NCBI GenBank assembly: GCA_028696165.1
Contig: JAQVHQ010000009.1
Span: 1 to 64,000 of the forward strand
Direction of reading: 5' to 3'
DNA from: Lachnospiraceae bacterium
Lineage (GTDB): Bacteria; Bacillota; Clostridia; Lachnospirales; Lachnospiraceae
DNA: 64,000 nt
This document shows positions 4,718 through 26,322 of this stretch, piece by piece. The notes beneath the pieces were generated by a model that did not search any database, had not been told where the DNA came from, and saw nothing but the letters and a program-made list of their open reading frames with translations. The position numbers and the translations under genes were made by a program. Each line of letters begins with the position of its first letter. The stretch's first letter is position 1.

Positions 4718-4757
4718 AAAATTTAAAAGATAAAGATAAAAGAATCGGGGACACGGT

Positions 4758-4800
4758 AAAACGGACAAAAACAGCGGTATTCGCTGTTTTTGTCCGTTTT
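4758..4800. terminator. bidirectional terminator between AEC and pfp
   Basis: A perfect 19-bp stem (AAAACGGACAAAAACAGCG at 4758-4776 with 4782-4800) around the loop GTATT. A shorter GGGACA/TGTCCC pairing outside extends it to about 4748-4810. It serves the converging AEC gene (+) and phosphofructokinase gene (-). Confidence 0.85.
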
Positions 4801-4856
4801 ATCATGTCCCGCTGGCCACGTTTGAAGCAACTGGGCGGATACTTCTTTTAACTTTT

Positions 4857-22362: not shown

Positions 22363-23049
22363 TTAAGAGATATTATCTTTTTTCAAGATAATGCGTTCCA
22401 TTCCTCCATATTTTTCTTTGCGAAGCACTTCTTTGTAGCCATTTTTCAAGAAGCACCGCAGACTTGCAGGATTATCAGGAGAGACTGTAGCCATATAATA
22501 TGCATGAACTTCCCGCTTATCCTGCTGCTTTTGCATATGCTCTTCCTGTTTGCTCTGCTGCTTTTCTATCTGACCTTCCTGGCTGTTCTGCTGCTTTTCT
22601 ATCTGACCTTCCTGGCTGTTCTGCTGCTTTTCTATCTGCTCTTTCTGTTTACTCTGCTTCTCTTGTAGCTGTTCTTCCGCAAACTGCAGCATGCGTCGCT
22701 GTAGACTATGTCCTCGATGCTGTGGTAAAACCACTGCAGATTCCATATGCACTACTTTAGGTAATTCCCACCGACGCATCCCGATATCATATCCCAGATT
22801 ATCTTCTTCCATCCCTGGAAATCTCACTATGAAACTTCCAGCAATTTTTTCTTCCTTATCCACGGCAACTACGCCAAATCCTGATTCGCTATGACTTAAA
22901 TGATGCTGAACATATTCCAACGAATCACAGACAAACAAATCTTTATTATCCAAATCATTGTATACAACATTCATGATATTATAAATGCTTTCTGCCTCTG
23001 AAGGCTGAGCCAGACGTATTGTATATTCTTTACCTTCTTTATATTCCAT
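22363..23049 (-). CDS. GNAT acetyltransferase with a Gln/Glu/Lys repeat inserted in the domain
   Basis: 228 aa from ATG 23049, preceded by GAGGG. Residues 1-126 are the first half of a GNAT fold, ending in the acetyl-CoA loop QHRGHSLQRRM (110-120). Residues 183-228 hold the rest (AYYMATVSPDNPASLRCF, then LKNGYKEV). Between them, residues about 127-180 are a highly charged Q/E/K stretch containing 11-residue repeats (QIEKQQNSQEG). It probably forms one long helix or coiled coil protruding from the enzyme. GNATs normally have a short loop here. The substrate is unknown. The next gene on the strand, 99 bp upstream, is the repeat-bearing lipoprotein. Confidence 0.7.
   Translation of the reverse strand: MEYKEGKEYTIRLAQPSEAESIYNIMNVVYNDLDNKDLFVCDSLEYVQHHLSHSESGFGVVAVDKEEKIAGSFIVRFPGMEEDNLGYDIGMRRWELPKVVHMESAVVLPQHRGHSLQRRMLQFAEEQLQEKQSKQKEQIEKQQNSQEGQIEKQQNSQEGQIEKQQSKQEEHMQKQQDKREVHAYYMATVSPDNPASLRCFLKNGYKEVLRKEKYGGMERIILKKDNIS
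22555..22642. repeat. 33-bp coding minisatellite inside the GNAT gene
   Basis: Two exact units (22555-22587 and 22588-22620) and a partial third (from 22621) of a 33-bp sequence starting CTGCTGCTTTTCTATC on the plus strand. It encodes 11-residue units on the minus strand, so length changes keep the frame. Confidence 0.85.
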
Positions 23050-23148
23050 ATACAGCCCTCGTATTTCTTCCGATTTTTTAATTGCAGACAAATGACAAAA
23101 CCACCCACGTTCATAAAAAACTGAGAAGCGGATTCCCACTTTCTTATC

Positions 23149-23883
23149 CTAAGCTCTGGATATTTCCGCTGTAATGTTTCCATTTCCAAGAATCTTTTTC
23201 AAATCACTTGCAGATACATCATCAAACTTTCCAAGTCTGGTGTATCTCCAGGAGTTGGATCCATAGAACATCACAATCTGATTACCGGAATATAGTACAA
23301 TATCACCTGCACTTGTAGTAGTCTGTACGTCATTGCTGGGAAGTCTTGTACCTAAGTCTCCTACCTGTTCAAATCCACCATACTGGGAGAAATGAATAGT
23401 TAACGGTTCTTCAATTAACATTTCTGACAGTGCGGATGCTGACTCATTGTCCTCTAGGGTTGCGGTAAGTTCTGTGGTACCTATTGTGATTTTTATTTTG
23501 CTGTTCTGCATGGTTTCTTCCTCCTCTTTCGGTTTGTTGGTTTCATCTGGCAAACTTGTTGCATCCTTTGTATCGGACTCATCTGATGCAACTGACTCAT
23601 CCGTTGCGATTGGCTCATCTGATGCAACTGACTCATCCGTTGCAATTGGCTCATCCGTTGCAATTGGCTCATCCGTTGTAATTGGCTCATCCGTTGTAAT
23701 TGGCTCATCCGTTGTAATTGTATTCTCTACAATATTGCTATTAGTCTCATCTATATTTTGTGTACCTTCCTGAATCATCGCGAGTTCACCTATTTCATTT
23801 ATCTGTAATTCTGATACAATTCCACAGGCAGGTATACAACTGCATAGGACCAGTATCATTATAATTTCTTTCATTTTTCGCAT
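23149..23883 (-). CDS. lipoprotein with acidic repeat stalk and cyclophilin-like fold domain
   Basis: 244 aa. The lipobox IPAC has the lipidated Cys at 20. Residues 57-104 are a stalk of eight 6-residue units of the type TDEPIT / TDEPIA / SDESVA. Residues 128-244 match the cyclophilin-like family PF18050 (Cyclophil_like2): KITIGTTELTATLEDN, FSQYGGFEQVGDLG, SAGDIVLYSGNQIVMFYGSN and SWRYTRLGK. The family is small and bacterial; it lacks the classic active-site Arg context of proline isomerases, and its function is not established. The lipoprotein plus stalk would display the domain above the cell wall. AGAGGA precedes ATG 23883. Confidence 0.8.
   Translation of the reverse strand: MRKMKEIIMILVLCSCIPACGIVSELQINEIGELAMIQEGTQNIDETNSNIVENTITTDEPITTDEPITTDEPIATDEPIATDESVASDEPIATDESVASDESDTKDATSLPDETNKPKEEEETMQNSKIKITIGTTELTATLEDNESASALSEMLIEEPLTIHFSQYGGFEQVGDLGTRLPSNDVQTTTSAGDIVLYSGNQIVMFYGSNSWRYTRLGKFDDVSASDLKKILGNGNITAEISRA
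23572..23715. repeat. 18-bp coding tandem repeats inside the lipoprotein gene
   Basis: Eight 18-bp units (for example GGCTCATCCGTTGTAATT on the plus strand). The units nearest the 5' end of the gene are almost identical and the rest are diverged variants, a pattern typical of slippage or recombination growth. Open frames seen in other phases here are shadows of the repeat. Confidence 0.85.
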
Positions 23884-24350: not shown

Positions 24351-24974
24351 CTATACGCCTTTTCTCCTATATATTCTGTAAAACTCCCGCACCTGTTTAT
24401 CCAGTATTTCCAATGCTTCCTCCTCATGTTCTACATCACTGGCATACTTATTTAAGAGAAAGAAAATAGGAGTATAGAAATAAACAGCCATTACCTGGGG
24501 ATCCGCCTGAATAAATATATCCTGCCTGCTCAGTTCTGCAAATAGTGTTGTCTGATAGGCTATGCTGTCTTCCAGAAAAAGCTTTTTGAAAACTCCATAT
24601 ACTTCTGGATTCTGAAACTGCTCTATGGTTCCCATACGCCAGAATCTGGATACAAATGAATCATTTAAATAAAAGAGAAAAATCTTGTTGCTGAGTTCCA
24701 CCAGCATTTTTTCATCAAACGCAGCATATACGGCAGCAGCCTCTTCTATATTATCGTCTGCAGGCAAACCAAATTCGCAGGATATATCTTCGATGTGCTG
24801 TCGCATGGTATCTACAATCGTATCCAGAATTTCCTGTTTGCTCTTGAAGTGCTTGTACAGTGAGCTGTCTTTTATTCCAACTGCATCGGCTATACGCTTA
24901 ACGCTGGTTCCCTTATATCCATTTACAGAAAACAGACTTAAAGCTTCATCTACTATGCGTTCTTTCGTTGTCAT
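24351..24974 (-). CDS. TetR/AcrR family transcriptional regulator
   Basis: 207 aa. The N-terminal helix-turn-helix is textbook: IVDEALSLFSVNGYKGTSVK, then IADAVGIKDSSLYKHFKSK. The C-terminal ligand domain is not assignable to a named subgroup. Its ATG overlaps the radical SAM stop as ATGA, with GGAGGAG in front, so the two genes are translationally coupled. Two identical-armed palindromes around the promoter of the pair are the likely binding sites, which would make it an autorepressor released by some ligand. Confidence 0.88.
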   Translation of the reverse strand: MTTKERIVDEALSLFSVNGYKGTSVKRIADAVGIKDSSLYKHFKSKQEILDTIVDTMRQHIEDISCEFGLPADDNIEEAAAVYAAFDEKMLVELSNKIFLFYLNDSFVSRFWRMGTIEQFQNPEVYGVFKKLFLEDSIAYQTTLFAELSRQDIFIQADPQVMAVYFYTPIFFLLNKYASDVEHEEEALEILDKQVREFYRIYRRKGV

Positions 24975-26083
24975 CTGGTCTCCTCCGCAAGCAATCTCCT
25001 TACCTGCTCTTCCTGTTCAAATAAAACACACCCGCCATTATGTTCCTGAAGCAGATTTCCGTGCTTCTGTAGTTTATGAAACAGTGGGGAGTTCAAGCAT
25101 TCTTTTAATGATGTTTCTGCAACATTCATATCTGAATATGGAGAGAATGGACAAGGTTCTGCACCGCCATGAGCATTGATGTGGAAAAATCCTCTTCCCG
25201 CCGCCAGGCAGCCACCGGACGTCTTCTCATCCCCTGGAAATGCGACGAAAACCATTTCCGAGATTTTTTCTCTCATTTTGTTCAATTGTTTCATCATCGT
25301 ATCTCTGCTTTGATCATCCAGCGCCAATCCTTCACTCCCATGATCAACAGGAACATATTTTACATATACAATTGCTTTTGCGCCATTTTCCTTTAATTTA
25401 CAGACAAACTCATCTGCAAAAACTTCCTGCATATTGTTCTTATTCACAGTAACTGATGCACCAAACAGGATTCCTTTCTTATGTAACTGCGCCATTGTGT
25501 CTTCCAGTTTTTTATAAACACCAGGCCCACGCCTCATATCTGTAGTTTCCTGTTTTCCTTCAATACTAAGTACCGGCATAAGATTACGATTTGCGTCCAG
25601 TATGCTCATATAGTCAGCATCAATCATGGTGCCATTTGTAAAAACAGGAAATATCATCCTGGTGTGATTTCCTGCCTCTTTTAGTATATCTTTTCTCATA
25701 AATGGCTCTCCGCCTGCCAGCAGGATAAATTCAATTCCCATATTTTCTGCCTGTGAGAAAATATCTCCCCAGTTAGTACTTGTCAATATTCCATTGTTCT
25801 TTCCATCGCTGCATATATCATGACAACTGTTATTTGCTCTGGCATAACAGCCTTTGCAATGAAGATTACATTGTTCTGTGATGCTTGCAATCAGGAAAGG
25901 TGGGACATGTTCACCCAGAATTTCTGCCTGTTCTCTTTTCGCTCTGGCTTTTTTACTTTGGAGGGCATATTGAGCCATGAAGATACTTGCTTTAGGATTT
26001 GTCAAAGATGCCTTCCATATTCCTTTGATAATATTCGCAACTCCGTTGCTTAGATACTCTTCCAACTTTTTACCTGACTCCAT
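24971..26083 (-). CDS. radical SAM protein (SPASM-like), partner of TetR
   Basis: 370 aa from ATG 26083, behind AGAAGG with 7-nt spacing; an in-frame ATG six codons earlier has no site. The radical SAM cluster is Cys72, Cys76 and Cys79 (TEQCNLHCKGCYA). Following motifs are LLAGGEPFMRKD (the GGEP SAM loop) and FVFTNGTM-like PVFTNGTMID. The C-terminal part has further cysteines (GGCLAAGRGFF, AEPCPFSPY, KEC, GGCVLF), as in SPASM domains holding extra iron-sulphur clusters. The N-terminal 60 residues are helical and unassigned. No small peptide substrate gene is adjacent, so a RiPP role is not supported. Its tight TetR control suggests an inducible, perhaps detoxifying or cofactor-modifying, reaction. 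Confidence 0.85.
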   Translation of the reverse strand: MESGKKLEEYLSNGVANIIKGIWKASLTNPKASIFMAQYALQSKKARAKREQAEILGEHVPPFLIASITEQCNLHCKGCYARANNSCHDICSDGKNNGILTSTNWGDIFSQAENMGIEFILLAGGEPFMRKDILKEAGNHTRMIFPVFTNGTMIDADYMSILDANRNLMPVLSIEGKQETTDMRRGPGVYKKLEDTMAQLHKKGILFGASVTVNKNNMQEVFADEFVCKLKENGAKAIVYVKYVPVDHGSEGLALDDQSRDTMMKQLNKMREKISEMVFVAFPGDEKTSGGCLAAGRGFFHINAHGGAEPCPFSPYSDMNVAETSLKECLNSPLFHKLQKHGNLLQEHNGGCVLFEQEEQVRRLLAEETR

Positions 26084-26103
26084 AAATAAACCTTCTTTCA
26101 TCA

Positions 26104-26160
26104 GCTAGTATTCACTAGCTTGTTTGATTTTATTATAGGCTAGTATATACTAGCTGTCAA
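26104..26160 (-). promoter_or_regulatory. consensus promoter with two palindromic operators
   Basis: On the minus strand, TTGACA (26155-26160) and TATAAT (26132-26137) are both perfect, with a 17-bp spacer. That spacer is filled by the 16-bp perfect palindrome GCTAGTATATACTAGC (26139-26154). A second site with the same arms (GCTAGT....ACTAGC, 26104-26119) lies just after the expected transcription start. The two centres are 35 bp apart. This is the arrangement expected for tight repression by the TetR encoded in the same operon. Confidence 0.85.
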
Positions 26161-26322
26161 TATGTATATCTACATATTGACAGAATATATCATACAAATT
26201 TCTGATTGTTTTGGGTTTACCTAGTGCATTTAACCTCATCAAGTAAGTCCCCCCGCTCCAAATACAAAGAGCATTGAGCTGTGGGTGTGGACTTTTCTTA
26301 TTTTTGTCTCAATTAGTATAAG

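Follow-up and report, generated by a model that had tools for sequence, protein, structure and literature searches.

A gene pair in a gut-type Lachnospiraceae bacterium raises the question of whether the palindromes at its promoter are the operators of the TetR-family protein that it encodes. The pair, a radical SAM gene followed by a TetR gene, lies on the minus strand of the stretch of 64,000 nucleotides that was analysed as a whole (the window). Its features are the following:

24971..26083, minus strand: radical SAM enzyme, 370 aa, with the cluster motif CNLHCKGC and C-terminal Cys; the reading frame can start at 26101
24351..24974, minus strand: putative TetR-family repressor, 207 aa, with the recognition helix DSSLYKH (residues 36-42)
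26155..26160, minus strand: -35 hexamer TTGACA, 6/6 consensus
26132..26137, minus strand: -10 hexamer TATAAT, 6/6 consensus, after a 17-bp spacer
26139..26154, either strand: putative operator O1, the perfect palindrome GCTAGTATATACTAGC, occupying the -35/-10 spacer
26103..26120, read on the minus strand: putative operator O2, AGCTAGTGAATACTAGCT (AGCTAGT-GAAT-ACTAGCT), about +6 to +23, 35 bp from O1
26091..26096, minus strand: probable ribosome-binding site AGAAGG, as read from the sequence
26154..26183, either strand: third inverted repeat, CTGTCAATATGTA-gata-TACATATTGACAG, perfect, with 13-bp arms and a 4-nt loop; the right arm contains the -35

Gene products and promoter architecture

The radical SAM reading frame (24971-26101) overlaps that of TetR (24351-24974) by 4 nt, ATGA, and TetR is the second gene of the putative operon, an order that the preliminary description had given correctly. 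Because AGAAGG lies 7 nt upstream of it, the ATG at 26083 is the likelier start of the radical SAM gene, and O2 would therefore fall within the 5' UTR.

The N-terminus of the 207-aa protein matched the TetR_N helix-turn-helix domain (Pfam PF00440, E=2.9e-14, 53 bits versus a cut-off of 24). Its predicted structure (pLDDT 92.6) placed the helices of this domain at residues 25-32 and 36-42, and a fold search with the model ranked TetR structures at the top, with the all-helical fold and C-terminal ligand/dimer domain of the family. The palindromic operator at the protein's own promoter, a further mark of TetR proteins, is attributed to it by comparative evidence (see below). At the subfamily level, its scores were below every named NCBIfam cut-off.

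The radical SAM protein matched Pfam PF04055 (E=3e-11, 44.2 bits versus a cut-off of 29.5) and carries an invariant CX3CX2C motif. Six cysteines (C72, C76, C79, C292, C311, and C352) were invariant in 42 sequences, the relatives being 76% to 45% identical. The SPASM/twitch signature (CX9-15GX4C plus a further Cys) was found as C292-x18-C311, containing GX4C, together with GGC352, and this pattern suggests an auxiliary cluster of the twitch type (3 Cys), not a full SPASM domain. The nearest folds to the predicted structure (pLDDT 83.7) were SuiB (Z=25.8), SkfB (Z=25.2), and anSME (Z=21.6). As modelled, the protein has a SPASM/twitch-type fold, which does not by itself imply a particular reaction; the protein scored under the cut-off of every NCBIfam model, in agreement with the earlier view of it as an enzyme without a named reaction.

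The promoter, TTGACA-17-TATAAT at 26160-26132 on the minus strand, matches the consensus at 12/12 positions and is the sole 12/12 promoter with a spacer of 15-19 bp across the 64-kb window; its spacing would put the start site at about 26125. The 17-bp spacer reads GCTAGTATATACTAGCC on the minus strand. From 5' to 3', the minus strand at 26083-26183 consists of CTGTCAATATGTAGATATACATATTGACA (the end of the third inverted repeat and the -35), GCTAGTATATACTAGCC, TATAAT, 11 nt, AAGCTAGTGAATACTAGCT, and GATGAAAGAAGGTTTATTTATGG. O1 is the sole perfect 16-bp palindrome in the window. By itself this is unremarkable, because ~1.35 such palindromes are expected by chance per 64-kb window; its coincidence with a promoter spacer is the notable part, with a chance of ~4e-5 (pair probability 0.26 to the 8th power, two possible registers). 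O2 shares the arms of O1 and is imperfect, with 7-bp arms around a 4-nt centre that lacks symmetry. When as many as 3 mismatches were allowed, the 16-mer matched 2 sites in the window, as against 0.05 expected.

These results bear out a good part of the preliminary description: the fully consensus promoter and its coordinates are correct, and the perfect 16-bp palindrome within the spacer is real. The second palindrome after the start site does have the same arms, but it is interrupted and hence not equivalent to O1. The search for the 16-mer elsewhere that had been proposed found GCTAGTNNNNACTAGC, with up to 1 mismatch, only at O1 and O2 in the whole 3.77-Mb genome. The third inverted repeat had been overlooked.

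This third repeat occurs once in the genome and was absent from the promoters of relatives, so that a conserved element or a part of a wider regulon was rejected. A divergent promoter arising from it was also rejected, as the sequence offers no -10 at the proper distance. It is possibly the site of a second regulator.

Elsewhere in the window, the protein encoded at 23149-23883 (minus strand) carries a signal-like stretch at its N-terminus, a series of TTDEPI/ATDEPI/ASDE repeats, and a domain of the cyclophilin-like type (PF18050); its in-frame repeats also yield spurious reading frames on both strands. A GNAT-family protein at 22363-23139 (minus strand) contains an internal repeat insert of the EGQIEKQQNSQ type, and a terminator-like perfect inverted repeat with 20-bp arms and a 5-nt loop is located at 4757-4801. 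An Rfam search of the window gave no matches.

Conservation of the operators and their link to the TetR type

A scan of named genomes with a TetR alignment yielded 80 loci, of which the 63 relevant ones were counted. The peptide DSSLYKH, which selects the helix class and not the operator, served as the seed of the genome scan; a family-wide TetR search was carried out without that seed. When the window's own promoter is counted, 55 of the 63 TetR-homologue loci place the operator between TTGAC and TANNNT; the spacer is exactly 17 bp in 43 of these 55, and the full TTGACA is present in 52. The remaining eight lack a pattern-matching spacer site, with two cut by a contig end (L101 and L117) and three retaining a good site after the -10 (L072, L104, and L123). 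No operator-in-spacer match was found in reversed sequence. When the promoter and operator pattern was sought in 295 genomes of the order, only the window matched, and the background of the pattern is therefore near zero. A second operator copy lies 25-38 bp away in 50 related loci. Both gene orders occur (L062-L122), and the O1-O2 spacing is 26-38 bp in the operons in which the radical SAM gene comes first; where TetR comes first, it is invariably 25 bp.

The loci span Lachnospiraceae, Oscillospiraceae, Christensenella, Acetobacterium, and spirochaetes, in ~50 species, with Eisenbergiella, Roseburia, Blautia, Faecalicatena, Dorea, Oscillibacter, and the spirochaetes Brucepastera and Breznakiella among the genera. 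This recurrence argues that the on/off switch is genuine and of an established type. The unit comprises two genes: the members of the pair are found in 58 and 55 of 62 loci, the next commonest family in 10, and no conserved third gene accompanies the pair across these 62 loci.

Among 44 radical SAM orthologues drawn from 250 Lachnospiraceae genomes, both operators were present in all seven with a linked TetR orthologue, and neither was present in any of the 37 others (Fisher P=2.6e-8). Where the enzyme adjoins another TetR type, it bears the operator of that type (GCTAA-type in L188 and L193, GTKAAC-type in L176 and L195). TetR relatives gathered by protein similarity and by the genome scan were then compared by recognition helix. 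D(S/A)S-YKH helices were accompanied by GCTAGY half-sites in 50 cases and by GCTAAT in none, and APS-YKH helices by GCTAGY in none and GCTAAT in 14, the classes having been partly defined after inspection of the data and the counted rows being related by ancestry, for which the Fisher test on these counts makes no correction. Further classes were YNH types with ACTAAC, ESA-YRH with GTKAAC, KGALY with GTAAAC, and K-ALY mostly with GTTACC; GTRAGC half-sites also occur. On a TetR tree from which the helix columns were left out, ~10 operator and ~12 helix changes were counted.

As judged from these comparisons, the operators track the TetR and not the enzyme, and the half-site shifts with the recognition helix across TetR paralogues. 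Sequence comparison establishes the position of the sites, their conservation, their exclusive link with this TetR type, and their change with the helix. Both tests support the earlier proposal that TetR, presumably co-transcribed with the enzyme, has the palindromes as its operators in an autoregulated operon.

Two observations on related promoters were made in addition. Upstream of a radical SAM orthologue linked to a divergent TetR (L059/L012, G165:C16), a perfect inverted repeat of 45 bp, with 21-bp arms and a 3-nt loop, extends from the -35 region to beyond the -10, which amounts to a pair of opposed operators. A Lachnospiraceae clan of local TetR proteins (L164-L233 and L142-L161) has the operator-in-spacer design with helix-dependent half-sites.

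Proposed regulation and alternative readings

Autorepression of the two-gene operon by TetR through O1 and O2 is, on this comparative evidence, the best reading and a highly probable one; physical binding, repression, co-transcription, and ligand release with induction are steps that we infer. The product of the second gene would bind, as a TetR dimer, to O1, between the -35 and the -10, and to O2, just past the start site. When bound at O1 it would cover the spacer and both hexamers and so keep RNA polymerase off a strong, full-consensus promoter, with O2 adding a further obstacle at the start site. A ligand entering the C-terminal pocket would cause TetR to leave the DNA, and the radical SAM enzyme and TetR would both be made; once the ligand is gone, the newly made TetR would re-establish repression.

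The palindromes could instead serve another regulator, with the TetR gene as a passenger. The third inverted repeat, different from O1 and O2 and overlapping the -35, indicates that another factor may also bind here, but the sites are present only with this TetR type (7/7 versus 0/37), their letters shift with its recognition helix, and they are kept regardless of which gene comes first; we consider the passenger account very improbable. O2 might also work at the RNA level and not as a DNA site, by forming a hairpin in the 5' leader that affects mRNA stability or masks the start site. The leader does fold into an O2 hairpin (-9.1 kcal/mol), but with a stability no greater than that of shuffled sequences (z=-0.89), which leaves the hairpin unsupported. 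In TetR-first loci, O2 begins 3 nt past the -10, so that the expected start lies inside it and a full hairpin is impossible, yet the site is still kept; the letters of O2 also change along with O1 and the helix. The hairpin accordingly deserves hardly any weight. That TetR activates, or both activates and represses, has precedents, since some TetR-family proteins do activate, for example DhaS and FasR (both in the NCBIfam list). A protein bound in the spacer of a sigma-70 promoter, however, prevents polymerase from touching either hexamer, and a full-consensus promoter needs no activator, which makes activation at this site scarcely credible.

Another alternative concerns the enzyme, which could be a RiPP maturase of the sactipeptide type under a density or peptide signal. 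Its nearest solved structures, SuiB and SkfB, would fit such a role. Against it, the 700 bp flanking each side contained no conserved short reading frame or peptide in the 59 loci compared, and the SkfB, StsB, and AlbA models score far under their cut-offs. Membership among these sactipeptide maturases was rejected, and we regard a RiPP role in general as unlikely.

Relation to known systems and possible role of the enzyme

TetR operons that regulate themselves, including ones with two operators, are familiar (Snowprint operator finding, PMC10858194; MtrR structures, PMC8053128), and the recognition helix alpha-3 of MtrR enters the major groove (PMC8053128). The proposed mechanism is therefore ordinary. 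Tn10 TetR, QacR, and MtrR share with the present system an N-terminal helix-turn-helix, palindromic operators over the promoter, and an autoregulated regulator beside its target gene; here, a radical SAM enzyme takes the place of an efflux pump as the target, and O1 fills the entire -35/-10 spacer. MftR-MftC of mycofactocin also joins a TetR gene to a radical SAM gene, but both proteins fall far under the curated cut-offs (41.8 of 224.9 bits and 44.7 of 265 bits), and a precursor peptide or other mft-like gene is lacking here; this identity was rejected. The mobile pair of radical SAM and MarR (NCBIfam TIGR04472) is likewise a small, self-contained unit of radical SAM and one-component regulator in unrelated neighbourhoods. 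In the present case, the regulator is a TetR with a single radical SAM gene, and TIGR04472 appears as a weak match of MarR proteins beside some orthologues. SkfB, SuiB, and anSME, although closest in fold, are only ~17-22% identical and differ in their N-terminal helices, and no peptide gene is nearby here. The radical SAM core is shared with prokaryotic viperin (E=4e-16 to PADLOC pVip), but our protein is longer, with an extra C-terminal Cys cluster region, and the viperin identity was rejected (47.9 bits versus an NCBIfam cut-off of 180). A search of the open literature found nothing direct on this pairing of TetR with a radical SAM enzyme, on the operator, or on the reaction of the enzyme family; the pair is an uncharacterised example of a known regulatory type.

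The neighbours in relatives offer a lead to the role of the enzyme. Radical SAM orthologues without TetR adjoin flavodoxins (L006, L007, and L023), nitroreductase-family proteins (L031 and L041), and MarR regulators (L016, L035, and L039), two of the last being close to OhrR (E=1e-47 and 1e-39, under the equivalog cut-off). Together, these neighbours suggest that the enzyme acts during stress from electrophiles, peroxides, or xenobiotics, which we take as a lead only; flavodoxin may be the electron donor. The OhrR-like regulators of L016 and L035 lie downstream of the radical SAM gene, which apparently comes under peroxide-type sensors there. The L016 promoter, TTGACA-17-TATAAT, has the inverted repeat TATATTGCACGCAATATA across the spacer and -10. 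Sister TetR units with the operator-in-spacer promoter, including the clan mentioned above, control NADPH-dependent FMN reductase-like flavoproteins, membrane alpha/beta hydrolases, flavodoxin, and DUF998 proteins. The radical SAM protein itself is probably a twitch/SPASM-type enzyme that stands alone; that it is induced by chemical stress or for a xenobiotic is the weak step. A wider reading would join these strands into a broad local-TetR clan of anaerobic Firmicutes and spirochaetes, with an operator in the spacer, a second operator after it, and a readable helix-to-half-site code (DSS with GCTAGY, APS with GCTAAT, YNH with ACTAAC). The clan would drive one-enzyme stress modules that include a new, oxygen-sensitive detoxifying enzyme of the radical SAM superfamily with several TetR/OhrR regulator swaps. 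As a whole, we hold this reading to be possible though doubtful.

What began as an observation on a single sequence is now a regulator-operator pair ready for testing, with the prediction that helix residues 36-37 and their neighbours set the operator bases. To our knowledge, inducible and tight promoters are scarce for gut Clostridia, and a full-consensus promoter with both candidate operators defined would be of use in this respect. The pair also marks a conserved radical SAM family, and its inducer, if found, would point to the substrate.
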